From Apiotrichum sp. Y4204 (Eukaryota > Basidiomycota > Tremellomycetes > Trichosporonales > Trichosporonaceae), in contig JAMYHL010000007.1 of assembly GCA_025531455.1 (NCBI GenBank), positions 744,001 to 808,000 on the forward strand: 64,000 bases of DNA, given 5' to 3'. Of the stretch, positions 1 through 19,106 are shown piece by piece (position 1 is the stretch's first letter; each line of letters opens with the position of its first letter). The notes below the pieces were generated by a model, which saw only the letters and a list, made by a program, of their open reading frames with translations, was not told the DNA's origin and did no database searches. The position numbers were made by a program, and so were the translations under genes.

Positions 1-2749
1 GCCGTGTCAACGTCGGCTACAACGCTGCCATGTCGCCGCAGATGACTGGTATGAGCTACGCAAGCAACATGGGCATGGGCATGCCGTCTGTCCCGCCCCC
101 GCCACACCAGCATCAGCACCAGCACCGCTCCACGTCGCAGCCGGTATACAACCCCCAGCAGCACGTACATTACCCGTACTCGCCGCAGCCGCTGCACATC
201 AATCCGCAGACATCTCGCGGTATGCCCTACACGGGCCCGGGTGTACAACAGTGGTCCATGCCTGGCGCTCCCCCCCACGGTGGACCTCACGGACACGGTC
301 ACCCCGGCCCTCACGGGCCTCCCCCGCACGGGCAGGGCCCCATGCAGATGACTCCGACCGGCATGTCCGGCATGAGCCAGATGGCGAACGGGCACGGACC
401 TGGAGGTTTCGGTGCGCGCGGGATGGGATCACCAATGACGCACGGCCAGCCCATGGCCCAGCCGATGATGGGTATGTCCCCGATCGGCTTTGGCCAAAGC
501 CACATGCACGTAAGCATGGGCACTGCGCCAATGGGCAGCATGCCTCTTGGTCCAGGAGACATGGGGATGGGCCAGTTTGGTCAGGGCCCACACCCGGGTC
601 TGTCGGTCCACTCTGGCGAGCAGGGCATGCTCGGCAAGGCGAATCAGATCTGGATCACTGGCGAGTTCTTCGGCGTGCAGCGCGCGCGCGACATGCTCCT
701 CACCGTTGCTGTGCAGAAGAGCAAGCTCGTCATCTCGCGCGACACGGCGATTCTCCCGCGCAAGCTCGACTGGCTGCTTACCGAGCGAATCGACGACATT
801 CGCAACATCATGTGCGACAACGGCACGTACATTCAGGTGCCAAGCGTCGGATCCCAGGCAAGCCTGATCACCGTCTTTGGCGACCATCGCGTCAATATCG
901 AGCGGACAATCAGGAGCGTCATGGCGCTTGCGTGCCAGTTCTACGTCGCGAGCTTCTGGCTGCTGCCTGTGTCGTTTGACGTTCTCATGCCCCAGGCGAC
1001 CCTCAACCCGCCACAGATGCAGCCGGTGCTCAAGCGCATCGCGCACGCTACGGGAGCTGAAGTTGTGTTCAAGTCCAACTGCTTTGAGATGCACGGTCTC
1101 GAGAAGGAGGTGCGCGATGCGGTGGTCAAGGTGCTGGAGTTGGATGTCATCAAGTCGTTCCACCACGAGATTCGCTTCCAGATCGAGCTCGCCAACGAGC
1201 ACCGCGAGTTTATCTCCGGCAAGAAGAACGGCAAGATCAACAAGATCATGAAGGTGTGCAATGTGCGGATCAAGTTTGAGACGTTCAACGACTACAACTT
1301 CCTCATGGACATTTCCGGGCAGGACATGGCGGCGCTCCAGGGCCTAAGCATGCTGCAGGAGGAGCTGCCCGCTGAGGTGTCCTTCCATGTACCGGAGGGT
1401 TACCACAAGCGTATCATCGGAGTCGGCGGCAAAAACATTCAGCGCATCATGAAGATGTACGGCGTGTACGTAAAGTTCTCCAACGCGGAAGAGTTTGCCC
1501 AGCTGGGTGGATACCTCGACAATGAGGACAATGTCGTCGCACGGACGCCGGCCAAGAACGCCATTGCGCTCGAGTCGCTCAAGACCGCCGTCATGGAGCT
1601 CGTGTCGCCAAAGGACAAGGACTACACCATCGACTCGGTGAACATTCCGCGGAGGTACCACCGCACCCTGCTGGGCGAGAAGAGCATCTTTATCCATGAC
1701 ATTGAGCGCAAGACAAACTGTACTGTGCGGTTCCCGAACAAGGAGACTGCGTCGGACACGGTCACTATCTTTGGGCCCGAGAGCCAGGTGCACATTGCCG
1801 TGGCGATGCTGCTCGACCACGTTCCCTTCGAGGCCGACCTGCACGTCCCACCCAACCCGGAGCTCACACGCCTGGTATCGTCCACCGAGTTTGTGCTCTT
1901 CACGGAGCGCATGAAGCGCGACCACCAGATTGCCATTTCGCCATCGCCACGCTTTGGTCAGGGCGACGAGGCCATTTTCAAGTTCCGTTGCCAGCGGAGC
2001 AGCATTGACTTTTTGTCCACCGTCCACGACGCGCTCGTCGAGTTCCTGGGCGAGCACAACATTCAGGTGTACCCGTCCAACGCGCAGAAGCGTGTCGACT
2101 CGTTCGCCGATGCCTTCTCCCACTTTGACTCGAAGCTGCTCTCGACGACAAAGGCCGAGGGAGAGGGTGGACCGTCGCGCCCCGTCCGCCCGCCAACGAA
2201 CGTAAAGGCGCTCTTTGACGGGTCTGGCCCGAGTCCGGCAACATACGACTCGCCACTGAGCTTCACTGGCGGTCCCCTCGGATTCAACATGCCCGACTAC
2301 TGGCAGACGAACATGCCTGCTCAGCAGCAGGGCAGCAGCGACCTTTCAAAGCGGGGTTCAGACTCTACGCTCGAGGAGAAGGTCCGCAGCCAGCAGTCCT
2401 CGACGGTCCACCACTCGGGTCATGTGCCGGGACACGCGCACGCGCTCTCCCACTCGCACGCGCACCCGTCCCGCGCCGTCGGCACCCGCACGCAGAGCCT
2501 CGACATCAGCCAGCTCAACTTTGCGCGCGCACTCGGTGGGCCGCAGTCGAGCTTCGCGCCGCTGCCACCCAGCCCGACAACTGCGTCCGGTGGCGTCGCG
2601 CCAAACACCGCCACGGGCACGTACTTTGGCCAGTCGAGCCAGAGTGGACGCTACCCGTCCTCTGTCGACGGCGTCACCCAGGGTGAGTTGAGAATCACCG
2701 ACATGCGCTAATGACAGGCCTCGCCAATGTCCAGGTATCGCACTCTTAA
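1..2749 (+). CDS. KH-domain RNA-binding protein, 5'-truncated by the window edge
   Basis: The reading frame is open from base 3 of the window, so the ATG at 30 is probably internal and the true start lies upstream. Counting from that ATG, residues 1-195 are rich in Met, Gly, Pro, His and Gln. KH-type units follow: one degenerate unit around 200-310, then units around 380 (SGKKNGKINKI), 448 (RIIGVGGKN, the only classic GxxG loop) and 533 (LLGEKSIFI). A low-complexity His/Ser/Pro tail ends the protein. The series of partly degenerate KH units recalls Bicaudal-C/vigilin-type proteins, so an mRNA-binding role in the cytoplasm is likely; no specific orthologue is claimed. The open frame would stop at 2711, but GTGAGT at 2683 and CTAATGACAG ending at 2717 define a 35-nt intron. 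Removing it adds GLANVQVSHS and a stop at 2747-2749. Confidence 0.85.
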
Positions 2750-4263
2750 AAATACGACGACGCTTGAGCCGCATCTCGAACACTATATACTCCCATCATC
2801 CACTACGGTCATACCTCGCACCAGATCCCCCTAGCCTGCTTGATGCCCTTCTTCCACCCCTATCTACCCGCTGCCACCCTGCATCCATCCCCCAATGACA
2901 GACAGAATAAACACGCATCCACCTTACCCAGTCCACATCCAACCACCACCATCTAGCCATTCCACCACAGTCCTACGTCCATAGCCGTGTCGGTCGCGTT
3001 CGCGATGCATGTCGTGTCGTTTCGGAGAAGTGGGCATAAGAGCGGGCAGCAAGTTGAGCGAGTCAGTGTACTTGTTTGTGGGTGCAGGACGCGTAGAGGA
3101 AAAGTACGGAAATGTTGAGTAGAAGTGAAGGAGCAAAAAACGGTGCATCATTGGGTCTCTGTCGACACTCTACCGTAGACTAACTGTCTTGGTTCAAAGC
3201 GAGACGGGCACCGCGGGCAAGGCCGGCGCGTCTGGCACGGTGCACGCGCACCATCCGGGTGGGCCACTGCCACTGTGTCTCCTTGAGACGGTGTCCATCC
3301 ACCTGCGCTACATCGCCGGTCACAGCACGGAACATACAAAACGTCCACGATAGAAAGTTCCACCATAGGGCGATATCTTTAAACCATTGTAGAAAATCAG
3401 CTAAAAGACCAATCTAATGCATATGCTTGCCTGAACCTCTTAATATTGGAAGGGTCACTACCATAGCTGCGCATGGCAGCTACGACTGCTCAACTGCATG
3501 TACAGTTGCAGCTGGTCTTTTGCAGGAAGACAGCTTCACCTCGGAACAACATTTTTGCCTTACCCATGACGATTGACAATGGCTAACGACCTACTGTACC
3601 GCAGCCTGGGCACCCGCTCTAGACTGCTTTAGATGCTTTCTTCACCCCGCTTCAACCACCAGGCTGGAAGCTCTTTGGAACGTGCCCCACAGTATCGAGT
3701 TGAAAGGCAGAGGTCCAGAGCATTTTGGCCCGCAACTCGCCGCATGTTGCCAACCGAACTGGGTACTGTAGCAATGTGGCATGTGGCCACTCACTGCTTA
3801 ATTGTTGACATGGCAGTGTGATCATACTCTGCTCATCCGCCCGTTGTTCAGCTTATGCTTCTAGTGCAACGAGCTGCGAGGATGGGAGTCAGTGCGATTA
3901 ATACCTCGATGCAGAGCATGCCAATCAGGATACTGCTGGACTTGTGTTTATTTTTATGGTCACCCACCACTAAACCATCGTGGGGCCCCAGGTGTCGGAT
4001 GTGGGGCGCCACATTGGTCCCGGATTGGCAGTGCCACACTCATTCTTTAACAACTCAACTCACTCTTCTACCATATCTCGAGCGCTCTTTTGCGTTTTTC
4101 TACCCCACCTTTCGTTCCCTGCATGCCCAAGAACGCAGATTAGATAGCTGCGACGCTACACAGTGCGATATGCGGAATACCCGGGTGACATGTCGTACAA
4201 TACTGCCTACAGACCGACCCAAACCTGCCTCGCCTCGAACTCGTCTTTTCCCTCCTTCTCGTA
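2750..4263. other. intergenic, between convergent gene ends
   Basis: This stretch separates the 3' ends of the KH-protein gene and the amine oxidase gene. Only short open frames without recognisable motifs or a plausible exon chain occur on either strand. AT-rich patches near 3370-3450 may belong to 3' untranslated regions. I see no RNA gene or repeat here. Confidence 0.6.
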
Positions 4264-6467
4264 TTACATCCGCGAACCGGGAGTCTTGCAGCAGCTGTCC
4301 TGGGTAACGGTGCCGCGCGAGCCGCCCTGGAACAGCTTGGACTGGTTGAATGCCTGGGTCGACATGGGCACATCGAGTGCAGGCCTGCGAAAGGTCAGCA
4401 TCAATCACAAGGGGATTGGAGGCTCAAAAGAACCCTTGGGGACACTCAAGATTTTTGAAAGAAGTCGTTAGGCTTGAGAGAAATGCTGTGTACCTCTGCA
4501 GGCATGTTTGGAAAGTCCTCAACGCGCGGGTTGTGCGTGAGGCCAAAGGTGTGCCAGACGACGACGTCCTTGTTCTCGACGGGCGCCTTGCGGTGGAGCC
4601 ACTCGCGGAGACCTTCTGCGTTGCCGTACGACTGGTTGGTGTACTTTCCGCCGGCGTAGAGCTCTCCGTCCTTGTACTCTGTGACGTAGAGGTGGTGCTC
4701 GCCAAACTCTGCGCGCGCGTAGGCGACCGAGTCGGGGTGGGCGAGCATGAGCTGCGAGGGCATGGGTGCGAGTTTGTAGGAGACGGGGCGGCCCGAGACG
4801 GGGTTGATGACGCTCGGGTTGGTCATCTTGAAGACGCGGTTCTTCTCGGGCGCGGCGTCGGCAAAGCCAGAGGTGGTGATGGGTGTCTTCTCGACAATGT
4901 AGCCGACACCGTACTTGTTGTTGGATGGCGGGTTGGCGGCGTTGAAGGGCATCATGACCGAGTCCTCCTGGACGATCGTGTTGTTGTGGCCGTCGATCAT
5001 GGGGTCGATACGGACACAGAACAGGTGCTGGTGGTTGGTGCCGAGGACACCGGGGGAGACAATGGTGCCGTAGGGCGAGGACTCTCCAGGGAGGATGGCA
5101 GCAGTCGAGAGGATACCGGTAGCGCGGGTCTCGAGGTGGACGGCGGCGGCCTGGTCAAACTTCCACGCGAAAATGTACTCGTAGTTTGCGACGGTGATGA
5201 TGGTCTGGATGATAAGGACGCGCGAGCGCTGGACGGTGGGGTTGTTGGTGCGGTAGTTTGTGTGCTTGGTGAGGAGCCCGTCGTCCTGCTCGTGGATACA
5301 CACAACACCCTCGGCCTTGGTGTTATCACCGTGGACGTTGAGGTGGTCAAAGTCGAGGTAGAGAATCTCGCCGAGGCAGTCGCATCCGAGCTTGAGCTCG
5401 TTGGCGCAGAGACCGGCACCAATGTCTCCGAGGTCGAACGCCTGCTTGCGGTGGAAGGGCGCACGGGGGTCTCCGTAGGGGACGGTCATGTCCGACACCG
5501 AGAGACGGTAAAACACCTTGCGGCCGTCGTAGCGGACGTCCGAGAGGACAGGGCCCTCACGGTAGTTGAAGCCAATGTGGAACGACCACTTTTGCCAGCG
5601 GATAACGCGGCCCTCGAGGGAGAACGACGCGCCCTCGGGCTGGATGACACGGTAGGGCTTGAGGTCGTCGCGCATCTTCACGCCCTGGGCCTGGAGGAGA
5701 CCCTGGTCGTACTCGTTCTGCTCGTACAGGTGCCACGGGAAGGGGCCGTCGAGGTCGAGCACCGTGCGGTCGCCGGTGCCGAAAATAGGAGTGTAGTCGA
5801 TGCGGACGAGCTCGAAAGTGTCAGAGTCCATCACGGGGACAAGCGGGAGCGGGGCCGAGTAGTGGCACGAGTCGGGGTTGTCGGTAAAGTTGAGGTAGAC
5901 CATGAACGGGGTGAGGCGCTTCTCGGGGTTGCGCGAGTCGGAGCCGTAGATCCAGCCGTCGGCGATGACCTTTGCGTTCTTCGGGAGCTGGAGCTTCTCG
6001 AGCACAGCGAGGAACTCGTCGTTCTTCAGGAGAGCCTCCTCGGCGGCAAGCATCTCGGCCATGTCGGGGGCAATGTGGAGGTTCTTGGGGATCGGGAAGC
6101 TCTTCTCGACCTCGGCCTCCTTGCCGTCGAGGTTGACAAAGACCTCATACCAGGTCGCGCCGGCCTTGGTCTTGACGCCGACGGAGCACTCGGCGAGGCG
6201 GTGGAGCGGGGGCAGGGCGTCGCGGGCAGCAGCATTAGGAGCAGCGTTCCAGCGGTCGAGCCAGGGAGCAAGCTCGGCCTTGGGAGGCTCAACGAGCTGG
6301 ATAGCCTTGAACCAGAGGCGGGCGTCGGGCTTGCCCTCGAGGAGGTGCTTCTTGATCGCCTGGACCGAGGCCGTAATCTCCGGTCCGCTCAGCGGGTTGA
6401 GCGGGTGGTACGGGTACGAAGTGGCGAGCGAGAGCTTGGCCGCGTTGGTGAGCAGGTCGGTGGCCAT
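4264..6467 (-). CDS. peroxisomal copper amine oxidase (primary-amine oxidase)
   Basis: The enzyme oxidises primary amines to aldehydes with release of ammonia and hydrogen peroxide, using copper and a self-made topaquinone. Exon 1 (6467 to 4450) encodes 673 residues. The cofactor motif N-Y-E-Y is at 428-431, with Tyr429 the expected topaquinone precursor. Copper ligands are His479 and His481 (HQH) and His645 (GLTHNPR). Downstream, 4384-4264 encodes 39 further residues beginning PALDVPMSTQAFNQ and ending G-S-R-M, a plausible type 1 peroxisomal targeting signal. Family alignment (FF-x3-PALDV) requires joining Ser673 directly to this exon, giving 712 residues. The 65-nt intron (4449-4385) has a good branch site (CTGAC) and CAG acceptor, but its donor reads TTGAGT instead of GTGAGT. 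If unspliced, the protein stops right after Ser673 and loses the targeting signal. Enzyme identity is firm; the 3' structure is the odd point. Confidence 0.9.
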
Positions 6468-7171
6468 GGTGGTGATTTGGGGTGGGTGGAGCTGGGGTTG
6501 CTGTCACGGGGACGCTGGGTCTTAAGTACATGTCGACGCTGGTGCTCTATCATCGGTGTAAGCTCTATCTGCCTGCTGCGCCCCGTTCTGTTTGCGCTCT
6601 GTGTGCGCTTTGCGCTGCGCGATGCCCACTACGGAAATCACATGCAACTCCATACCCATACGGTGTCTACCACTACAGCGAAATCTAGCCGCCGGCAAAG
6701 GATCTCGCTGGGGGCGTTGGTATATGCGTGTGTAGAGTATCCGCTGATAGAGGCACGCCGCACGATGGGCCAGTTTAAGCGTCGGATGTGGGCGACCAAG
6801 CAGCTGGCTGCATTTTCCGCAGGGTGATAGGCCGGCTGAGATTGCCATCGTGTGAGTTTGGCTAAGACATGAGAGACAGAGCCAAGAGTCGGTTGATGCC
6901 ATGTGGCCTGCCCTGGACTGTATACAGGGCGAGCTGCGTAGATGCAAGTGCCGCTGCATGCATGATGTCTGTGCTTGATCCGACAAGCTCAAGGTCAGTA
7001 GTCAGTGCCTGCTCCACGCGGTTCCTGCTCCCAGCAAGCCAGTAAGCAGCAGCGATTAGTCGCCGCGACGCCGCAGCTCGGCTACTATCCACCTTGAGTT
7101 CGCTTCCGGTTCTCCCGCCCCGGCCCGGAAGGTCAGATGAGATAAGTGGGAGAATGGCCGCAACGGAGCCC
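6468..7171. other. upstream region of the amine oxidase gene
   Basis: This holds the presumed promoter of the divergently placed amine oxidase and ends at the transposon target duplication. No conserved open frame, tRNA or repeat is visible. Confidence 0.5.
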
Positions 7172-7180
7172 GTCTCGTGA
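7172..7180. repeat. left 9-bp target-site duplication (GTCTCGTGA)
   Basis: GTCTCGTGA lies directly against the left terminal inverted repeat. The identical 9 bases follow the right terminal repeat at 13071-13079. A 9-bp duplication is the usual size for Mutator-like elements. Confidence 0.95.
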
Positions 7181-7231
7181 GAGAGAATTTAGAGCGACCG
7201 GCCAAAAAGCTGCAAAATCGACCGTCCCATG
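7181..7231 (+). repeat. left terminal inverted repeat of the MULE
   Basis: 51 bp beginning GAGAGAATTTAGAGCGACCG, identical to the reverse complement of 13020-13070. The match stops exactly at the target duplication on the outside and at base 7232 on the inside. Confidence 0.96.
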
Positions 7232-7467
7232 TGCCGACCGCATTTTAGCCATGTGGTCTCAGACATCTTGATACAAATGCACCCGAGATGTCTTGAACTG
7301 TGATACCGTAGATCCCGCGCACGACGCGTGAACGCGGCTGACGAGATGCGCACAACAAACAGCTCGTCGATCGTCAATCTTACTCATAACATCGTCTCAT
7401 AACACCGTGACTTTGACAGCACCGACAACAACCAACGACTAGCAACTAACTACCAGCAACTAGCAGG

Positions 7468-10267
7468 ATGTCTCTCCCAACCGCGATGGCCACCCAGATG
7501 TCGATCGAGATCGCGATTGACTCCCAGGTATCGATCGTAACGGCGACCGAATATCAGACTGCGACAACTCAACTCAACATGTCTCAGACGTCTGAAGATG
7601 ATATACAGACATCTGAAGACAACTCTGAAGACGATTCTTTCGATGAAGATATACCCATGCTCAATGAATGGGATGCCGAGATTATCCAACAATTGATTGA
7701 TCCTGTGGCCCCCTGGCCTTTGCCGGATCCCAACCACATCTTAAGCCACCCCGCACCCATTCTCCCCGATACCGATACCCAAGAACAGATGGAAAGCCAG
7801 CTCCAACTGTTTGCAGCCAAGTACGGCTTCGCTACCAAGCGAAGACGATCCGATGACCGCAGGGCTAGAGTCATGGTGACAATTACCTGCCATAAGAGTG
7901 GCACTTACCGCAACAAGACCCAAGAACCATCTCGCAGACGGAGGAGCTCTTCGAGGCTCACAGACTGTCCTTTTCGTGTGAAACTATTCTCCAATCCTTC
8001 CAGGACACGTTGGAGCCTCAAAGACACTGTTACGTCCTGTTACGAGCACAATCATCCACCTGTGGATGTCAGTTGTCTTCAGCAATACTCCAAGATGTCT
8101 CAAGACGACTTAGACAAGATCCGCTCCCTGCTTGAAAGCGGTCTTGCACCCAAGAGAGTCCGTCGGGTGTTGCAGGATCAAGGTATGAACGCCCGTAGGA
8201 TCCCCTCTCTGCCTGTGAGTGTATCACAAACTGCCCTAGTTGACCAGAACAGCAACTAAGGTTTATCAAATGGCGCGCACGCCGAGAACGACACATTGGT
8301 CCTACAAACGCCGAAGCCCTACTGCGGCTGTTGACAACTCGAGGTTGTCTTCATCGTTCAAGTAAGGATGAGTCTTCGCAACGCCTCCGCACCATCGTTG
8401 TTACGACAAAATCCGCTCGCACACTGCTTCACCGTTACCCTACCGTTTTGCAGGTGGATGCGACGTACAAGACCAACAAGCTGGACCTGCCCCTTTTACA
8501 TTTCGTTGGCGTGACAGCCACCAACCAGACGTTCACCGCGGGCTTCGCTTTCCTTCAAGATGAACAAGAGCATACGATTCTGCTGGCTGTACAGGATTTC
8601 GCCCGGTTAGTCGTCTCAGATGTCTTAGAGATGTCTGAACTGTCCCTCTCCCCAGCTAACACGGAAGTTTGATGGGGCCTTTCCCTTTGCAAGCAGTTGT
8701 CACAGACCGCGACGACAGCATCAGGAATGCCACCAAGGCAGTTTGGCCTGAGGCGTACCAACTGCTTTGCACTTGGCATATCCTCGAGAATCTTCGCAAA
8801 AAGGTGACTCCTCCTTTCAGAGAGCTATACGGCCGGCAGAAGACGATTGATGATCAGCCCGTGTGGCAGGTCGAGGTCGCCAAGTTCGAATCTGAATGGC
8901 AGCGGCTGGTCATCGACGCAACCACAGAGACATCTTTGACAGATGGCCTGAGATGTCTGAGATCGTCTTACTCCGAACTACACTATCGCGGGCTTCTTGA
9001 AGACGCTCTGATCGAAGCAGAGAATATCGTTGCCACATGCCGGAGTCACATTTGTCGAGTGTACACGGACAGAATCCGCCATCTGGGACAGCGCACCAAC
9101 TCGCGACTGGAGGGGATGCACTCTGTTCTCAAGAACAGCATTGGTTCCCGGGCGGCGCGACGCAAGGCCAGCCTAGTGGATGCCGCTTCTGGTGTCCTCC
9201 AGCACATGGAGGAGCAATGGGACAATGTAATGGAGCGACAGGCAAAGCAGGCCAATTCAACCTTCACTCACCACTCGATCTTTCAGCCATTGCTGCATGC
9301 CGTCTCTGACTACGCCCTTGAGAGGATGCAGCCCCAGCTCGGCCGTGCGCTCAACGCGGCCGATGGAGCCGAGCTGCCGCCGTGTACCAACATGTTCACC
9401 ACGGCAATGGGTCTACCGTGCGCCCACCATCTCAAGACAGTGCTCGACAACGAGACATGTGTAAGACTCACAGACATCTTCGGCCATTGGTGGCTCAACA
9501 CCAGGGAGGAAATGGAACAGTACCGCGACTTGCTCAACGACCAGCTTGCGGACGAGACATTAGAACATCCCGCGGAGTTCGACTTTGAGAGGCTACGGGC
9601 CGAAAGCAAGTTCGTTCTTGATCCTGTCCGTGTGGGGAGGAGAAAGGCGGCGGCTGCCGAGGCGTCGGCCAGGGCAAGACGTCTGGGCGAGACGTCTGAG
9701 GAACCAGAGACCCTTGACACAGGTCGTATCCCCACCCAAACAGAGTGCGCCGCGGGTATGCGACACCCCCAATGGCCGTTGTGCGATTCATGCGGAGCAC
9801 GTCATTCGCCGAGCCATGTGTGCGCGGACAGAAGGATGGAGAACTTTACCTTATCTCAGCCATCCACCCAGATGTCTCACACTCAGATGTCTCAGATGTC
9901 TGGGGTGACTACGACACAAACATCCCAGACACCTTCGGCCAGACCGTCAGATGAGCAGCTGAAGACGCCTGTAGTCAGGTGCTTCTTCTGCTCCAATCCG
10001 CACCGCCGCAAGGGGTGCAAGGCCCTGGCGGAATGGCGGAAGGGACGCATTCTCGAGCTGAAGCGTCTTGAAGTCTTGGAGCAGCAGCGCAACTGGCGTG
10101 GTGGAAGCCAAGAGCGGTCTTCGGATGAAGACGAGTCTGAGACCGACGATAGCGACAACGAGGACTTGTCAACGAGTACCTCAACTATAGACCTGGACCG
10201 GTTCAGGGTTGAAAGCTCGCCATCCAGCCATCTCAGACATCTTGAGATGTCTGGCCCTGTCTGCTAG
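7468..10267 (+). CDS. MULE transposase (FAR1-like N-terminus, DDE core, SWIM-like zinc finger)
   Basis: Exons 7468-8214, 8253-8605 and 8668-10267 join in phase to 899 residues; the introns are 38 and 62 nt. Residues ~110-210 form a FAR1/WRKY-GCM1-like zinc-binding DNA-binding region (TITCHKSG, TDCPFRVKL, YEHNHPP). The MULE catalytic core supplies Asp ~317 (LQVDATYKTNK), Asp ~380 (AVVTDRDD, followed by LCTWHILENL) and Glu ~514 (TNSRLEGMH). A SWIM-like motif (MGLPCAHHL) is near 605-620, and a C-terminal zinc-knuckle-like motif (CFFCSNPHRRKGC) is near 804. The enzyme should cut and paste the element through its terminal repeats. ATG 7468 is the first in-frame start after the left end and itself lies in a near-copy of the octamer. 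Several octamers are read as MSQ or QTSE peptides, so the motif shapes the protein sequence. Confidence 0.93.
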
Positions 10268-10339
10268 ACGTCTGAGCGACGCCCCATCCCCATGGCAGGT
10301 GCGCCCTGTCATCCCGTCATCAATCTCGTCATCAGGTGC

Positions 10340-10630
10340 GAGCGTGGAACGGCCTGGCGGGCAGCGTATATATATCAGCCTCCGGACGTCTCTCTTCTTG
10401 TCTTCCCTCCATCACTCACTTTTGCCGTTTTCACCACTGCCGCCACCTTTCTCGTCTTCCCTCGTCTTCTCCCGCGGCCTTCCCTTGTTCGCTCTCGTTC
10501 TCTCTCGTTCTCTCTCGTTCTCTCTCCTTCTCTCTCCTTTCGTCTTTTATCACGTTTGTTCTCGATACGTTTTCTTTTTCGTCTCGCCACTCGCACTCTC
10601 GCCTCCTACGTCGATATTGGTTCTCTCGTG
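10340..10630 (+). promoter_or_regulatory. putative promoter and leader of the MULE accessory gene
   Basis: A TATA-like run (GTATATATATC) lies near 10368. It is followed by a long pyrimidine-rich leader containing about five tandem copies of a 10-bp unit close to TCTCTCGTTC (10491-10540), ending at the ATG at 10631. Pyrimidine-rich leaders are common in highly expressed fungal genes; the assignment is inference. Confidence 0.5.
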
Positions 10631-12817
10631 ATGGCACGCGACAGCCGCGGTCGCTTCATTAAGCAGTCGGCGTTGAAGAAGTCGCAGGAGAAGGATCAGG
10701 ATGGCGCCAAGGAGCCCAAGTGAGTCGCCCCGAGATGTCTTGATCTGGCAGCGTCAGTTTTGCCATGCAATTCACTAACGCCGTTTAGCAAGGGTCTTCC
10801 CACGCAGACGTCTGAGATATCTCTGGACGAGACTGTGGCTCTCGCAGCCGGGATGTAAGTGATGATCACATCACCCACCACTGACAGTACAGTGACGGCC
10901 CCACCCCCACCGAGCCCGTGGCTGAGCCGACAGCCGCTGCTGGCAAACGCGCCGAGCGCCACTACTCGTCGGCTCCCACCACCCGTCCCTCGTCGCCTCC
11001 ACCCCCCCCTCCTCCGAAGGCTCCGCAGTTCTGGGACCCTTCCCTTGTCGGGCAGATGTCTTCAGGCCCCTCGAAGACGTCCTCCGACCTTCCACAGGAG
11101 GAGGATGACGAGACCAACTGTAAGTCCGCATGAGTGAGAGAGAGTGAGCCTGCCCTAACGTCAGCAGCCCAGATGACGGCGCCGGCCCCGCCTCTTCCCC
11201 CGAACTGGAAGGAGGTGTTCCGCGATGGCACCGGCACAGAGTGGGAGGCCCCAGTTGGCTTCCAGGCGTCTCAGAAGTCTCGGGCGTCGCCGCCACCAGT
11301 AGGGCTGTCACAGGGGTCCTCTGTCCCAACCCTCCCCACCCTCCCCACCTTTGCGCCAGCCAGTGGTGCGACCGCCGCAGTCGTTGCGGCTTCGGCAACC
11401 GTGCCCTCCCCAGAAGCCGTCGACCACCAGCTAGGCCCGGCGCCTGGTTCACAGACATCTAGACGTGGTGAGATGTCTGCCGAGACATCTGCAGAGACGT
11501 CTAGCGAGACGTCTGAGGCGGCTCCTTCTCTTGCCCCCCCCTCTGCACCCTCAACCCCGCGAGTCCTCCATGCTGTCACCACTCGCCCTCGCCGTCGCAC
11601 TCGAGCGACTGCCACCCCCCCCCCTCCCCCCCCGCCGCAAGACCAAGAGGACTCCCCTCTGTCCTCCCCGGCTTCCGAATCATGGGAACCGGACTCGGAC
11701 GAGGAATCGTCGTCAAGCTCGGCCGCGCCGTCCCCTGAGCCGTCCCCTGAGCCCAAGGGCGAGTCTGAGCATGAGGCTGAGGCCGAGGGTGATGCCGACC
11801 CTCAGTTCGACACCAACACCGTCGAGGTGTTCACTCCAGACTGGAGTCACGACGACGGTTTGGTCTACTCCGACAAGAGCTGTCAGCTTCCGGCCGCACT
11901 GCTTCCTGCATGGAAGGCACGAATCGCCAAGCTGGTCGAGGCCAAACCCAAGACCCTCAGTACAGTAAGTGATCGTCTGAGATGTCTTGAATGTCTTGAG
12001 ACATCTTCCCACAAGATGTCTCAGACATCTTCCACGGGGAACTACTCTTACACCACAGCTTCTCCAACGTCTTGGTACAGTCGTCAACTCGTTTGCTGGG
12101 AACAAGATGACTCTGCGTACGGGATCTGAGCGCTGCTGCTTCTGTCGCAGGGATGGAGTGCCATGCTACTCCACGGGCTACAGCTGTGCGTATTGCAACA
12201 TTACCAAAGCCAACTGCCCCATCTCGAAGAGCAAGGAGGTCAAGGTCGAGCAGGAGGACGTCAAGGTCAAGGTCGAGAAGAGCACCAAGGACGACAATGG
12301 TGAGGCCGCGGTGATCCACTCGGTCGTCAACTCCGCGACTCTAGCCAGCGCGAAGAACATCCACCACACCGTCAGTGGTGTGATCGTCAAGCTTACCAAG
12401 TTCGCGAAAGACCATGTGTCCGGCATCCAAGCCGAGCTGCTCGAGGCACACATCAGCCATCTGTCTACGGCTGTGAATGATGCTGCCAACATTGTCCGTC
12501 AGCTCGAAGACAAGACCAAGACCAAGACAACTGAGATGTCTGAGCCGATGGAGACAGCCGGGTCCGAGACGCCTGAGCAGGACCCAGTGTGGCCGCCACC
12601 TATGTCGTCACCGCCGCCGGGTATGCCTAAGGGATCCGACCCTTTCGGCAAGCTGATAAAAGGTCTCTACGAACAATTCCCCGATGAGCTCTCACCTGGT
12701 TCGGACCCGTTCGCTGCTCAGGCTCAGGCCGGCCCTGGTCCTTCGACTAAGGCGGCTAAGAAGAAGCGCAAGGCGACCGAGGTAACCGTGATAGAGGCGA
12801 AGAAGAAGAAGAAGTGA
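10631..12817 (+). CDS. MULE accessory protein with a Zn2Cys6-like cluster
   Basis: Five exons (10631-10719, 10789-10854, 10893-11119, 11165-11964, 12059-12817) join in phase to 646 residues. Residues 1-400 are Pro/Ser/Thr/Glu-rich and probably disordered. Around 420-450 lies C-x2-C-x6-C-x6-C-x2-C-x6-C (CCFCRRDGVPC, then SCAYCNITKANC), matching the spacing of fungal Zn(II)2Cys6 DNA-binding clusters. A helical segment follows (about 485-540), and the C-terminus is lysine-rich, ending EAKKKKK, a likely nuclear signal. The acceptor at 11164 is followed directly by CAG, so a NAGNAG choice adds or removes one residue. The last intron (11965-12058) holds four octamers. A role as DNA-binding partner of the transposase, or reader of the octamer, is inference. 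I recognise no characterised relative. Confidence 0.8.
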
Positions 12818-13019
12818 TGTAGATCTTGATATTTGGAGAGTTATGATATATCATGTGGACGAGATGTCTTTCAGGTTCAGTGTGGATGTCTCAAGATGTC
12901 TCAAGAGGTCTCAATAACGTAAAAAAAGTCCGCAAGTCATACATGACGTGTAGTAAAGATGTCCAAGATGCCTGAGGTGTCTTAAAGGTGTAACTTCAGG
13001 GAGGAGCACGTGGAAAACC

Positions 13020-13070
13020 CATGGGACGGTCGATTTTGCAGCTTTTTGGCCGGTCGCTCTAAATTCTCTC
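13020..13070 (-). repeat. right terminal inverted repeat of the MULE
   Basis: Perfect 51-bp inverted copy of 7181-7231, ending in CTAAATTCTCTC immediately before the right target duplication. Confidence 0.96.
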
Positions 13071-13079
13071 GTCTCGTGA
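13071..13079. repeat. right 9-bp target-site duplication (GTCTCGTGA)
   Basis: Identical to 7172-7180. The empty site before insertion would have held a single copy. Confidence 0.95.
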
Positions 13080-13704
13080 GCCGTCCAAGCGGGGCCTGGC
13101 TCTCTCTCAGGTTCTCACCTGCAAGCGGCGCCAACCGTTGTCGATGGCGGAGTTCTTAAGCAACTCCGACTCTGACACACTATCAGGCGTCGCGAGGCGT
13201 AGATTGGCATCTGGAAGCGACAGACGATTACAGACGACCCTGGAGAGCCCATTCTTTGCCTGCGGCTCAACCAAGCACTGCCTCGGCAAACGGCAGAAAA
13301 TGTTGCTCTTGAGCGGGGACCCGCGGGTTGGGTTGACCTGGGGCGCCTGCTGGTTGCTCTGATATGCGCGCCATGTGGGGTAGTGTTACGAATAGCATAC
13401 AGTACAGAATGGGTAAGGCAGACATTTGCAGTGCGGTTATCGGCGGCGGATGCGGGTATCAGCTGTGTAAGTCGTCTGCGGGGTGGAGTGCGGGGCCAGC
13501 AGACGCTGTGCATATGAATCTTCCTGGAACAGTCTTCCTGGAACGATCGGGAGTACGATCCGGAAAACGGGATATCTGGCACGGTTCTCCAAGGTTCTCG
13601 CCGCGTTACTCATGATAGTGGGCTGGCCGATAATAGCCCCCTCGCGTAGCCGATAATAGTTTGCTCATGGCCCGGTACCTCTCCGTGGGCAATGAATCTG
13701 CGGC
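13080..13704. other. intergenic, 3' of the transcription-factor gene
   Basis: Short open frames only, none with a recognisable motif. Two near-identical stretches with CCGATAATAG occur at about 13628 and 13650. No RNA gene is visible. Confidence 0.5.
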
Positions 13705-15936
13705 TCAGCCGATAAGCACCGAGCGGCCAATCTCAACCGCGACCTCCCGCCAGTTGCACGCCTGCAAGTCATATCCCTCGTCGATGCGCCGCCACATCTC
13801 CTCGACAATCATGCGTGTGCTCTCAATCTCGTGACAGCACTGATACGCGAATGTCTTGATAATTCCCCGCGCGACGTTGCGCTTGTCCGCGTCGACAATC
13901 ACCGAGCACCCGATGAGCAGCGACCAGTTGAGGAACTCGACCTTGTCGCCTACCTCGATACACAGCTCGAGGATCGCAGCCGCGCTGCTCTGCACGTCCG
14001 AGTCGTCCCGTGGGCGCTTCTGCATGTCGCGCAGCACAACAATCTGCACGGCGTGCCACAGCGTCATGCTCCCCATCATCGTCCGCGGCGCGAGGTACCG
14101 TGCTGGAGCCTCCGCGCGCCACGTGGCGAGCTCAATCTGGACGTCGGCGAGTCGCCGGCTCAGCTCCATCCGCTCCATCGCTGCAGGGCTGTGCAGCGAC
14201 ACTGCCGGATCCAGATCGTTCAGCGGTCGGTAGTGTGCCTCAAAGCGGCGCCACTCAGAGTAGAGCGTGAGCACGGTGGCCGTAATGCGCAGCAGCAGCC
14301 GGTCGAAACCGACGAGCGACTCGACGGATTCCCACTGGGTGTCAGTAAGCGCGCCAGAAGAAATGGAGCCAGAAGTCGGAGGAGGTAGAAAAGGCTGGAG
14401 CAGAGTGAAGGGCCCCAGTGTGCAAGTATTATGCACACCGGTACCTCCATCACCGATGCAGCAGCAATCCTGAGGTCCCGCAACGCACATCTTTCCAGCA
14501 TTTCGCCTCCACACCCAAACCCACCTCGCGGTCCGTCTGGCCGGTCGTACCCAACGCCTCCCACCAGGGCGAGTCGTTGTCGAGAATTGTTGGTGGGTCG
14601 CCGGTGGTGAAGCACGAGAAGATGTCGTGCATGACGCCGTGTTCGATGAGGTATCTGCGTGCAGAGAGCGGGGGCGTGAGTTCGCTCCCTGGACGGCCTG
14701 CCAGGGCGGTACGCCAATCCATCCCGAACAGCACGTTTCCAGCACCGCCGCGGTGCGCGATTGCCGCCTTGGCGTAACGCAAAGGTTCGCGCCAGGAAAC
14801 AGACGCGCCGAGAATGTCGTTGTCGACGATCATGAGCGACGCAGCAAGGAAGGCATCGTGCGCCAGCTCGCCTGGTACGCGGCGTGCCTGCCGCAGGAGA
14901 CCGAGGGACGTCTGCCGGTACTGTTTGCTCAGTTGGAGCGTGTGCTCTGCCTCGGGAAGGCGGCTTGTTGCCTCGAGATACGCTAGGTGTGTTGCGCCGA
15001 TCGCGAGCATGCTGTATTTCAGCGCCGAGGTCGAGAGTGGTGCGTCGCCTGTCGGAAAGAGGAACATTGGCGCAATGTGCTCCACCCAGGGGTTGGACTG
15101 CTGTCAGCGGGATGAAAGCATGGCGCAGCTGAAGCATCGCCCTGCGATGCTCGGTCGCGCACCGGCCATTCTGCACAACTCACGTCCTCGTCAATGACCA
15201 TGATTGATAGCGAATACGTCAGACAGTGGTGGAACTGTGGTTAGCCTTGCCTCAGGGCCGCACGCACACATCGGAGGTCCTCGGGGAGGGGGAACGCGAG
15301 GGAGAGGAATTCTGGCGGGTCCACGGGATTGTTAAAGAAGGAGCCCATTTTGGTCTTGCGGAACAGCGCGTGTACCATCTCTATCGGCGGGAGAGAGTCG
15401 ATGATCCGGCGGTGGTCGGCCGGCTGCACCTGCATCGGGAGGGAGGGCGGGGACATGGACGTGCCCTGCTGCGGTTCGCCAAACGTTGCGATCGCGTTCG
15501 CAGCAACGTTGCTCGGCCGATTGTGCCTGCTCCCCAGCGCGGCGTCCACTGCCGCCGCATCAAACGCCTTCTTGACGGGATACACGCACTCGGCGCCATA
15601 GTTTACGCAGCGCTTGCATTCAGGCCGTTCTGCGGTTAGTAGAGCTTAAGCGGCGCACGCACCGAGTTCGCACTTGATCCGACGCGCGCGGCATACGAGG
15701 CAGCCGTTGCGCGAGCGTGTGCGTTTGACCTGAGACTGTGATTGGGACTGAGCTTGGGATTGTGATTGTGATTGTGAATGGGATTGAGAGCGCGACTGTC
15801 CGCCAGAATACCCCCCACTCGTGCCCGAGCCGGACGCGGATCCCGATCCCGAAGCGACTGGCGCCGAGCTCGAGGCGACGGCGTTCGTGCGCTCGCTGAC
15901 GGAGAGACGGCGCTTGACAGGGGGCGAGGAGGACAT
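13705..15936 (-). CDS. Zn2Cys6 fungal transcription factor (Fungal_trans_2-like)
   Basis: Exons run 15936-15663, 15629-15268, 15234-15184, 15097-14525 and 14394-13705, giving about 649 residues. The N-terminus has a Ser-Gln repeat followed by a binuclear zinc cluster, C-x2-C-x6-C-x6-C-x2-C-x6-C. The cluster is split by a 33-nt intron: CLVCRARRIKCEL lies before it and RPECKRCVNYGAEC after it. The rest resembles the fungal-specific transcription factor domain (FHHCLTYSLSIMVIDED, then SNPWVEHIAPMF). A second 33-nt intron is at 15235-15267. The donor of the last intron could also be GTGCGT near 14492, still in phase, which would add 11 residues. Expected role: nuclear, sequence-specific regulator. 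Its targets are not evident from the neighbours. Confidence 0.87.
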
Positions 15937-17862
15937 GGTGCGCGAGCAAGGGCGAGGTCGATGGGAAACAAGACGGGACGCAGAGCGGGGCGCAGCGCGA
16001 GACTCGGGGCCGTCGGCCAGTATTATTATTAGTTACGATGGGATGTGAGGGAGAGAGAAAAGAAATGTCGATGCGTGTTGTGGACGGATATACGCCCGCA
16101 GACGAGCATCCTTGGTTGCTGTTGCGGCAGTGGACAAAGAGGTGGACAATGGGGGAATCTTAACCGAGACGGCTGGGCGCTTGGCGAGATTAGCGAACAG
16201 ACCAGCGGGCGGGGCCTGTGTGGGGTCAGCGGCAAAGTGTCAAGTGCCGCGCCAGGCGGGGAGATGTGGGGGAGAATTTGTGCGTGCATCGTGGATCATG
16301 GAGGGGAGAGGATGTGAGAGTATATGAGACCATGCATGCATGTATGCATGTGAGAGAGGATGAGACATCAGACAGAGGATGACTTGAGACACGCTGGGTG
16401 GCAAACAACCAGCCATAAGACATAAACATCGAAAAAAACTCTACAGGAGGACGCGATTTCCGCCTCTACATCCAGCCACCACCGTCGCATCTCTCAAATC
16501 CGCATCGCATCACGTCGCGTCAAGAGCAGGCGGGCATGCGAGCATTCTTTCATGCATGCACACACCCTTCTACACGTTAAACACGTTTTTACATTGTCGT
16601 ATGCATTCCACGCTGCAGGACCATGGTACCGTGGCCCGTGGCCAGGACTAGCAACAGGCTTGTAGCCGAACAAACACCGCAGAGACGCCGAATGCCGCTG
16701 CCGAAAAGCGAAAGAAAGTGATGAAGACGCGACACTTTGTTGTCAACGTGAAAAATTTATAAAGATTGGGAGCCTTGCTTGTTGTTTTCGTTAGCATGGA
16801 GGATGTTAGAGATGAGTCTGTCGATAGCTGGGCGATTGCACGGCCTCTGGTGTCTGTTGGTGCGCATATTCCGCTGAGACGAGAGATATCGCCAGGTGGC
16901 CAAATAACAGCACGGCTCGCGCGACTCTCCACACCGGGGCCGACACGTCCCCTACCCTAGTCCTAAGATCCTAGACCACAGATAACCACGAGCGCTCGCG
17001 TCGCTCGCCTCGTTAACGAGCGATTGTCAGTCTTCGCGAGAGATATCGACAACGCGCACGACCCTTCATACCCCATCCACATGCAGGGCTGACAAGGTGG
17101 GGCTCAACGCGGGGATTTCCACCAAACGCCCCTTTGGTTGTGACGATGCACGATATACCCCACTCACTCTGCCAGCCCCTTTGGAGCCATGGACGACATG
17201 GCTTCAGAATACGTCCAGATGATGTTCAACGGCAGATTCCAATGATATGTTCGGCAATTGTAAGACAGACGCTTGAAAACCTGTGACCATCGGACGCCAG
17301 CAGGCCAGCAGGTTGTGCCATGTTATGTCTGGGGTCAAGCGCCAGAAACAAAACTAACGCGTGACTGCCCAGACGTCGCCCTCTGTCTCACTGTAGCGGA
17401 GCTCGTGTTCGGTTCTATCTCTCACGCCTCACATTTTTTCTAATTTTTTTCTCTGATCTGTCTGGATATTATAACTTTTCTGACTTACTTTCCCGATTCC
17501 GGACTCTACTGACTTCTGGGACTTATCTGCGTAGCGCCGGCTCTAATCAGCCATCTGCTTTCACGGGGTGACGTCGGGAACTGCCACGAGACCTTCAAAC
17601 AAAGAGCGGAATAAGGGTGATTTAATAGACGATATTATACGACATGTCAGCTCGCTATCAGTCGGTCTGCGCCCTGCTTTGGAGCGGCTGTTGTGAAAAG
17701 CAGAAACGAGCACACAGGAAGAAAACTAACAGGTTTGCTGTTCTTCAGTCTTTCTCGAGAACAACACCAGTCAGGACAAGAAGACACAAAACCGACAACC
17801 TGGGTTAGCCACTGACCAGAATCCTCGCTTACTTCAGAGACAAAGATTTCACAAATTTCATC
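15937..17862. other. long intergenic region upstream of the transcription factor
   Basis: No convincing gene is present. Features seen: CATG-rich alternating runs near 16331-16352 and 16550-16560, a pyrimidine-rich AT patch at 17430-17460, and several short frames without motifs. It probably holds the transcription-factor promoter and leader, and the upstream flank of the tRNA gene. Confidence 0.5.
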
Positions 17863-17964
17863 GGGCGTGTGGCGCAGTGGTAGCGCGTCTCTTTTGCAAA
17901 GACTTGACCTATCAGGCGAGTCCAACAATAGTGAAGATCCTGGGTTCAATCCCCAGCGCGTCCA
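17863..17964 (+). tRNA. tRNA-Ala (anticodon UGC) with a 30-nt intron
   Basis: The acceptor stem GGGCGTG pairs with CGCGTCC (one G-U and one U-G pair), with discriminator A at 17964. The D arm is GCGC/GCGC, the anticodon loop reads TTTGCA, and the T arm is CTGGG-TTCAATC-CCCAG. The mature parts are 17863-17898 and 17929-17964. The intron 17899-17928 follows position 37, the canonical eukaryotic site. The anticodon stem has one U-U mismatch (29-41). The fit to the conserved fungal tRNA-Ala(UGC) layout, including the variable loop, is close. Confidence 0.85.
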
Positions 17965-18166
17965 GAACATTTTTGCCTGTTTTTTTTTTACCTCCACCTC
18001 TTGCGCCGCTGGCGCGGAGCGAGCCGACCGAACCGAGATCGCGAGATTGCTAGATCAAGGCCGACGCGCCGCCGTGGTCATGGATGATGAGATGAACTTG
18101 GACTTGCTCCCAACTGGCAACCCGCAATTCACCCCGACTCCCTCACCCCACCTCCCTCTATACACG

Positions 18167-19106
18167 ATGACCGCCCCCGCGTTTCTCAGCACCCACGTCG
18201 GCGCCCTCACCCGCGCACCGGGCACGGCGAGCCGACCACACATTACGCTGACGTGGGCGCAGAGCCTCGACGCCAAGATTGCGGGGCCGGGCGGCGCGCG
18301 CGTCACGCTCAGCGGGGACGAGAGCATGCTCATGACTCACTGGTAGGTGATGAGATTGGTGGTGGGGGTGGGACTGACGCAGCAGGCTGCGGACGATGCA
18401 CGATGCGATTCTCGTCGGAGTGCAGACTGTCGTGATGGACGACCCGCGGCTGAAGAGTATGGTTGAATGTCCAGATTTTGTATGTAGCTCACGGCAGTCC
18501 AGCTGGTTCCGCAGGACGACCCGGCGCTCCTCCCGCCCCAACCGCTGATTCTCGATCCTGCGCTCCGCATGTCGCCCGCGGCGCGCATGCTCGCCGAGTG
18601 GCGGAATAACCGGGAAAATAACGACAGGGCGCGCGGAGCGAAGATTGTGCGGCAGCCGTGGATCCTGTGCGGGACGGATGCGGACGCAGACAAGGCCGCA
18701 GCACTCGAGGAGGCTGGCGCGCGGGTCGTGCGTGTCGAGCTCGTTGATGGTGAGTGGTGCTGGTGGCTTTGGCTGACTCCAGGCCGGATCGCGCCCTCCG
18801 CCCTCCCCCGCATCTTGAAAGATCTCGGGCTGCGCTCCGTCATGATCGAGGGCGGGTCGCGCGTGCTCTCGTCGTTCCTGCATTCGCCGGCGCGCGAGGA
18901 CGGGACACCGCTGGTCGACAGCGTTGTGGTTACTGTTGCGCCCATGTTCATCGGGGAGGGGATCAGTGTCGTGCCTCCTGTGGGTCTGCTGCGTAGATAT
19001 CATGCTGACTCTTTAGGGAGAAGACATCGGCCTCCCGCCGCTCCGCTACATTCATACCGAGACCATGGGCAAGGACGCCGTCATGGTGTGTGCCCTGCAA
19101 CAGTGA
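18167..19106 (+). CDS. RIB7: 2,5-diamino-6-ribosylamino-pyrimidinone 5'-phosphate reductase (riboflavin synthesis)
   Basis: The enzyme performs the NADPH-dependent reduction of the ribosyl side chain in the fungal riboflavin pathway. Five exons (18167-18342, 18386-18456, 18498-18749, 18783-18979, 19017-19106) join to 261 residues, close to yeast Rib7 (244). RibD_C-type motifs are PHITLTWAQSLDAKIAG near the N-terminus, AILVGVQTVVMDDPRLK, LILDPALR, and near the end VMIEGGSRVLSSFL and GKDAVMVCALQ. Introns are 33-43 nt. An in-frame ATG at 18080 would add 29 residues; 18167 is preferred because the conserved core then begins about 24 residues in, as in known homologues. The gene lies 200 bp downstream of the tRNA-Ala gene. 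Confidence 0.92.

Follow-up and report, generated by a model that had tools for sequence, protein, structure and literature searches.

What would lead a transposon to carry one palindromic octamer through its exons, introns, gene spacer and both flanks? The question is raised by element A, a complete Mutator-like element (MULE) of 5,890 bp from the fungus Apiotrichum sp. Y4204, lying on the forward strand at 7181..13070 of a 64,000-nucleotide stretch (contig JAMYHL010000007.1, positions 744,001 to 808,000) that was analysed as a whole and is called the window here. That the octamers, AGAYRTCT, form a putative protein-binding array is well supported by their density, by signs of selection on them and by their exclusive co-occurrence with the accessory gene of the element, gene 2, and on these grounds a role as binding sites for a protein that the element encodes, one of several floated in an earlier note on this DNA, is kept as the best reading. 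In its full form, to which we give about an even chance, the protein would most likely be the product of gene 2 and would counter silencing by the host.

Density of the octamer in element A

The window contains 35 AGAYRTCT starts, of which 34 lie between 7261 and 12894, the number first counted in the element. The remaining start, at 208, corrects the earlier statement that the other 58 kb hold no exact copy; this lone octamer outside the element (208-215) amounts to one per 58 kb and fits the genome rate. Were the word equally dense throughout the genome there would be little to explain, but it is found at 2,122 places in 48.9 Mb compared with 2,059 for the reversed pattern, and since the count is near that of the reversed control the octamer is not dense genome-wide. 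At the genome rate 0.256 octamers are expected in 5,890 bp, and 34 are observed (Poisson P about 2e-59).

The recognisable unit is a dyad with a preferred centre. AGA-N2-TCT occurs 36 times in element A against 3.7 expected from the element's own trinucleotides, the next dyad by score occurring 12 times. The 50.8 kb of background in the window contain a single example, and its centre is not YR. The YR centre is present in 34 of the 36 (TG 17, CA 9, CG 7, TA 1) and in 40 of the 43 AGA-N2-TCT words (TG 18, CA 16, CG 4, TA 2) of a related element, B, described below, and this constancy points to a specific dyad. Gaps of 0, 1 and 3 bases between AGA and TCT are found 1, 1 and 2 times in A, far below the two-base gap, and the next commonest gaps are of 4 bases, with 10 cases in A and 1 in B, and of 11 bases, with 9 and 8 cases respectively. 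The TG and CA orientations are balanced, at 17:9 in A (P 0.17) and 18:16 in B (P 0.86), which fits recognition of double-stranded DNA and not of RNA; a motif acting at the RNA level is disfavoured on this account.

Chance and codon bias are rejected as the source of the array by the Poisson test together with codon-usage-preserving shuffles, 2,000 for each coding stretch. Exon 3 of the transposase gene (gene 1) holds 10 octamers against a shuffle mean of 1.8 and maximum of 6, gene 2 of element A holds 9 (mean 1.05, maximum 5) and gene 2 of element B holds 14 (mean 3.1, maximum 8); exon 1 of the transposase gene, with 3 octamers (mean 0.65, maximum 4), is not significant alone. The suggestion that the octamer is kept despite coding constraint is borne out. 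Exons contain 22 of the 34 octamers in A, and 30 of the 40 in B where exon edges are approximate; 18 of the 22 in A are in the frame that reads T or M followed by S. Density per bp in A is nevertheless higher outside exons (12 in 1,264 bp, versus 22 in 4,626 bp of exons).

Octamer-free stretches within the element do not exceed about 525 bp. At each of the seven cluster thresholds used, the largest gap between clusters in A is smaller than random placement gives (P up to 0.0038), the corresponding result in B at the same seven being weak (P 0.026 to 0.19), and the spacing of unclustered octamers is not significantly regular in either element (A P 0.135, B P 0.347). Strict positional regularity of clusters is suggestive only.

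Retention and turnover among related elements

All evidence on the family comes from this one genome, and consists of two elements with gene 2 and one element of 533 bp. When the whole genome was searched with the transposase, eight matches were obtained: the window itself, element B on contig C158 (65% identical over transposase exon 3), and six others at 28-38%. Element B, on the reverse strand of locus L043, reaches the contig end with its left end missing, and its visible 5,719 bp carry 40 octamers. A non-autonomous element of 533 bp on contig C16 (L044 1799-2331) has the same terminal inverted repeats (TIRs) as A, is flanked by a duplication, CTGTTAAGC, and contains four octamers within 41 bp. 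The word is therefore not a peculiarity of a single copy, as it might have been, with 40 occurrences in B and 4 in the 533-bp element. Around the latter (L044 1740-2670), GTAAAA/TTTTAC words recur many times, in part as inverted copies.

The six other MULE loci, of 2.8 to 6.6 kb each, have 0, 0, 1, 0, 0 and 1 octamers and are without gene 2; at one of these, on C19, TIRs were not found and the 6,600 bases were chosen arbitrarily. The top 8-mer reaches a z of 28.9 in A and 40.3 in B, compared with a highest value of 11.4 in the six other MULEs and 9.5 in three background stretches, and no different dense motif of comparable strength was found at those six loci. Octamer pairs within 30 bp were sought genome-wide with two patterns that covered all except pairs of two AGATATCT. 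One gave 19 and 19 pairs versus 5 and 2 in the reversed control, a clear excess, and the other gave 28 forward and 34 reverse versus 26 and 29, hardly any excess. Only three loci, A, B and the 533-bp element, show arrays, whereas each of ten further contigs has one isolated pair, and no comparable array was found in the genome apart from the element's relatives; the argument from pairs is one of concentration in three loci, the locations of the control pairs not having been compared.

Comparison of A with B indicates how the array is maintained. A MAFFT alignment gives 61% identity over 5,381 aligned columns, and 16 octamers fall in the same columns, with 18 found only in A and 24 only in B; positional conservation, raised earlier as a check, thus holds for 16 of the 34 sites in A and fails for the remainder. 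Retention of 16/34 compares with 16/438 (A) and 19/540 (B) for neighbouring YR-centred 8-mers within 45 bp, and with 94/1,337 for YR-centred 8-mers across the whole alignment, octamers included (binomial P 2e-10). Synonymous sites are near saturation, the proportion of synonymous differences (pS) being 0.70 for exon 3 of gene 1 and 0.67 for gene 2, so that retention does not just reflect recent common descent and points to selection. The sites private to A or to B indicate in turn that further octamers are gained and kept; of the 24 sites found only in B, nine align with an 8-mer of A that is one mismatch away and eight with a gapped one. An octamer both retained and regained argues for selection on motif density.

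The earlier note had named selection and a copying process as candidates for maintaining the octamer, and of these it is selection that stands. With one octamer taken per cluster (16 in A, 22 in B), the flanks of dispersed octamers have an identity of 0.336 versus 0.309 for random sites in A (P 0.007) and 0.316 versus 0.308 in B (P 0.14). Because dispersed flanks are little above random, most sites look as though they arose through point changes that selection then kept, and copying, gene conversion included, is disfavoured as the main source, with a slight excess in A. Local runs at 9-, 12- and 15-bp spacing, among them one of five octamers in B at 15-bp intervals, suggest that there has been local tandem duplication too.

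Element structure and the two genes

The identification of element A as a MULE is confirmed by its transposase domain, its ends and an empty site. MULE target-site duplications are about 8-11 bp long, and element A is flanked by a 9-bp duplication, GTCTCGTGA, at 7172..7180 and 13071..13079. Its TIRs of about 51 bp lie at 7181..7231 (forward) and 13020..13070 (reverse), the left one being the sequence found at both ends of the 533-bp element. A homeologous locus on contig C106 matches thousands of bases on both flanks at about 92% identity, lacks the element and has the nine-base GTCTCGTGA once; window flanks 2001-7190 and 13061-18500 align to this second copy of the region (L053). The diverged copy without the element indicates that the genome holds two copies of the region with the insertion in one only, and by its sequence the assembly looks like that of a hybrid or heterozygous diploid. 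Two lone TIR copies, at C16:59141 and on C94 (L045 5139-5181; L048 5317-5363), have no adjoining array. By eye their surroundings are similar, in opposite orientation, and they are perhaps a remnant common to two subgenomes.

Gene 1, with approximate exon edges, encodes the transposase on the forward strand. Exon 1 (7468..8211, an open frame with an inferred 3' edge) encodes a FAR1-like DNA-binding stretch that matches PF03101 (E 8.1e-6, 26.9 bits), slightly below the curated cut-off of 28.1. Exon 2 (8262..8606) was placed by eye from the frame common to B, and exon 3 (8669..10267) encodes the end of the MULE transposase domain (PF10551, E 5.2e-8, 33.7 bits against a cut-off of 27.6, covering positions 66-99 of the 99 in the profile) followed by a cysteine/histidine-rich tail that by eye appears zinc-knuckle-like.

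Gene 2 (10631..12817, forward strand) has, by a splice model, five exons (10631-10719, 10789-10854, 10893-11119, 11168-11964 and 12059-12817) encoding 645 aa, and its homologue in B encodes 684 aa and is 37% identical. It is under purifying selection and diverges faster than the transposase gene (proportion of nonsynonymous differences, pN, 0.375 vs 0.241). A search of the whole genome with the B protein, at E up to 1, matches A and B only, and no relatives were found in the viral and prokaryote collections. Gene 2 of A matches no Pfam family at E up to 10; the sole match of the open reading frame covering its last exon is to PF07267, at 13.3 bits against a cut-off of 25, and a PDB profile search with exon 5 gave one non-significant match (E 0.41). 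The last exon contains a six-cysteine stretch, C-x2-C-x6-C-x6-C-x2-C-x6-C (12134..12217), in which A and B have every cysteine in common, and this spacing (x2, x6, x6, x2, x6) agrees with the canonical Gal4 spacing. Zn2Cys6 proteins often bind inverted trinucleotides, commonly with CGG as the half-site, and AGA-N2-TCT is likewise an inverted trinucleotide; it differs in having AGA as its half-site, and the cysteines lie in the C-terminal half of the gene-2 protein. Octamers in gene 2 of A occur at 12-bp spacing, and in gene 2 of B tandem 15-bp units with one octamer each (3360-3427 on the reverse strand of L043) yield a repeated AETSV peptide.

The octamers of element A are distributed across all of these features. 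Two (7261, 7286; 7261..7293) lie upstream of gene 1, three (7586, 7607, 8093; 7586..8100) in its exon 1, all three common to B, and two (8618, 8629; 8618..8636) in an inferred intron. Exon 3 carries those at 8928, 8951, 9472, 9677, 9690, 9870, 9885, 9894, 10235 and 10245 (8928..10252), with 8928, 8951, 9472, 9677, 9885 and 10235 common to B. The octamer at 10266, which overlaps the gene 1 stop codon, and that at 10733, in gene 2 intron 1 (10266..10740), are both common to B. Gene 2 exons contain 10806, 10815, 11054, 11453, 11471, 11483, 11495 and 11507 (10806..11514), with 10806, 10815 and 11483 common to B, and intron 4 contains 11980, 11999, 12014 and 12023 (11980..12030), with 11980 and 12023 common to B. 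The final three are at 12534 in the last exon and at 12862 and 12894 in the 3' flank (12534..12901).

A candidate anti-silencing system and its alternatives

A strand-symmetric, dense dyad under selection, found together with an element-specific gene whose product has a cysteine cluster, is what would be expected if that product bound the array. We infer binding by the gene-2 protein, in dimeric form, with anti-silencing as its outcome. The six-cysteine cluster of a gene-2 dimer would read both AGA half-sites of AGA-YR-TCT, and the absence of octamer-free stretches above about 525 bp means that the protein could coat the whole element. Such coating would keep the element accessible, opposing CpG methylation by Dnmt5, heterochromatin or silencing coupled to RNA interference (RNAi). 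The YR centre can be CpG or anything that deamination makes of it (CG, TG, CA, TA), so that a site would survive the methylation it opposes.

The host probably has both CpG maintenance methylation and RNAi, judging from its gene content. Profile matches, counted by exon and not by gene, number three for DNA_methylase, eight for Piwi and thirteen for RdRP. At one methyltransferase locus (L054, C128) an open stretch of at least 713 residues matches 7r76_A (2,348 residues) with E 2e-296; the PDB record names this chain DNA repair protein Rad8, and we take it to be Cryptococcus neoformans Dnmt5. The locus passes the Pfam cut-off (29.3 bits) and has a weak NCBIfam dcm match (15.6 bits, cut-off 100.65). 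Several DNA_methylase, Piwi and RdRP matches also occur in near-equal pairs on two contigs.

The role in silencing is proposed by analogy with VANC, which opposes silencing on the VANDAL MULEs of Arabidopsis. These elements also supply the MULE precedent that had been thought lacking, having dense family-specific motifs bound by the VANC protein that they encode (PMC5735166), and sequence-specific anti-silencing is described for VANDAL21 with VANC21 and VANDAL6 with VANC6 (PMC5735166; PMC10398659). VANC21 binds dense YAGTATTAY motifs in VANDAL21, whose density is considered important to where the protein localises, VANC removes methylation along the full length of VANDAL elements, and VANC diverges faster than VANA (PMC5735166). 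Element A resembles them as a MULE with an extra gene beside the transposase gene, a short motif whose high density is peculiar to the family, gain and loss of motifs between relatives, and an accessory gene diverging faster than the transposase gene. It differs in that its host is a fungus and not a plant, VANC carries DUF1985/DUF287 whereas gene 2 has no Pfam match, and VANDALs are described as non-TIR (PMC6446971) whereas element A has TIRs. VANC21 sites are mainly non-coding and often in tandem repeats, whereas many of the octamers here are dispersed and 22 of 34 are exonic; beside the VANDAL case the spread through exons remains unusual. Another related system is Mutyl of Yarrowia lipolytica, a fungal MULE with a transposase and a second gene, mutB, said to have a DNA-binding role; the accessible part of its description lists C2H2 and mentions no dense internal motif (PMC6446971).

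Several observations weigh against this reading of the array. CpG observed/expected values (A 0.91, B 0.88) lie only mildly below the 1.06 of background and, being near normal, give no strong footprint of past methylation. The match to PF00172 is below the cut-off of 21 in B (13 bits, E 0.11) and absent in A, and for this reason membership of Zn_clus is not claimed. AlphaFold models exon 5 of gene 2 poorly (mean predicted local distance difference test score, pLDDT, 46; cysteine region below 41), with no Zn2Cys6 fold, though a helical hairpin follows the cysteines at about residues 91-160 (block pLDDT 57-79). The co-occurrence of gene 2 and the array is a matter of two elements versus six MULE loci without either, the 533-bp element has octamers at one end only, and the motifs of VANDAL21 and VANDAL6 differ whereas A and B share one.

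The array might instead be bound by the transposase, through the FAR1-like stretch or the cysteine-rich tail of gene 1, so as to aid synapsis or to titrate or regulate transposition. The En/Spm TnpA protein and the Ac transposase bind short subterminal repeats confined near the ends, another case of an element-encoded protein and many copies of a short word, and the last 210 bp or so at the right end do contain octamers, two in A, three in B and four in the 533-bp element. The last is too short for gene 2 yet keeps its octamers, which fits a mobilisation role, although its one-end arrangement suits protection in trans as well as mobilisation. Octamers run through the whole of elements A and B, however, with most sites far inside, in exons and introns, those of the 533-bp element are near one end only, and the nearest other MULEs (C131, C19; 37-38% identical) have none, and we consider transposase binding unlikely. 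Recognition by a host DNA-binding protein, an activator, insulator or chromatin opener that the element exploits along its whole length, would make binding by the gene-2 protein unnecessary and agrees with the palindromic form of the octamer, like that of many factor sites; it is quite unlikely given a genome count at the reversed-control level, the restriction of close pairs elsewhere to single ones on ten contigs, and the failure of other MULEs in the same genome to exploit the word.

Zn2Cys6 proteins are usually transcription factors, and the gene-2 protein might be an ordinary self-activator or repressor with an array that serves transcription only. Promoter sites would then do, and sites over exons, introns and spacer without a gap above about 525 bp would be superfluous and do not fit promoter control alone; in addition, VANDAL copies are hypomethylated even without detectable transcriptional activation (PMC5735166), and a role without effect on silencing seems improbable. 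Neutral mutation or copying, whether by tandem duplication, gene conversion or satellite-like drift, would account for the runs spaced 9, 12 and 15 bp and for the slight flank-identity excess in A. We regard it as highly improbable as the origin of the array, since the flanks of dispersed sites are hardly more alike than by chance (in B not significantly so), octamers are retained at near-saturated divergence, and the same word is present in both elements.

Returning to the gene-2 protein, it is possible, at somewhat less than an even chance, that a fungal MULE lineage has independently evolved VANC-like anti-silencing, in which a Zn2Cys6-type protein coats the element, exons included, and the coding sequence is written around its sites. 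In the literature searched, with most subscription journals outside its coverage, no recognisable description was found of the octamer in a transposon or of anti-silencing by a fungal MULE, a search for the octamer as the whole word AGATGTCT returned one unrelated plasmid paper, and the VANDALs of Arabidopsis are the only MULEs found with sequence-specific anti-silencing. The authors of the VANC study ask whether the host machinery used is conserved in other kingdoms (PMC5735166). If the reading proposed here is true, a fungal case, in a host with a Dnmt5 relative and RNAi-type genes, would make the repeated origin of such systems directly testable; it would also offer a compact pair of protein and motif for targeting chromatin state, and a clear instance of protein-coding DNA shaped element-wide by a DNA-binding requirement.

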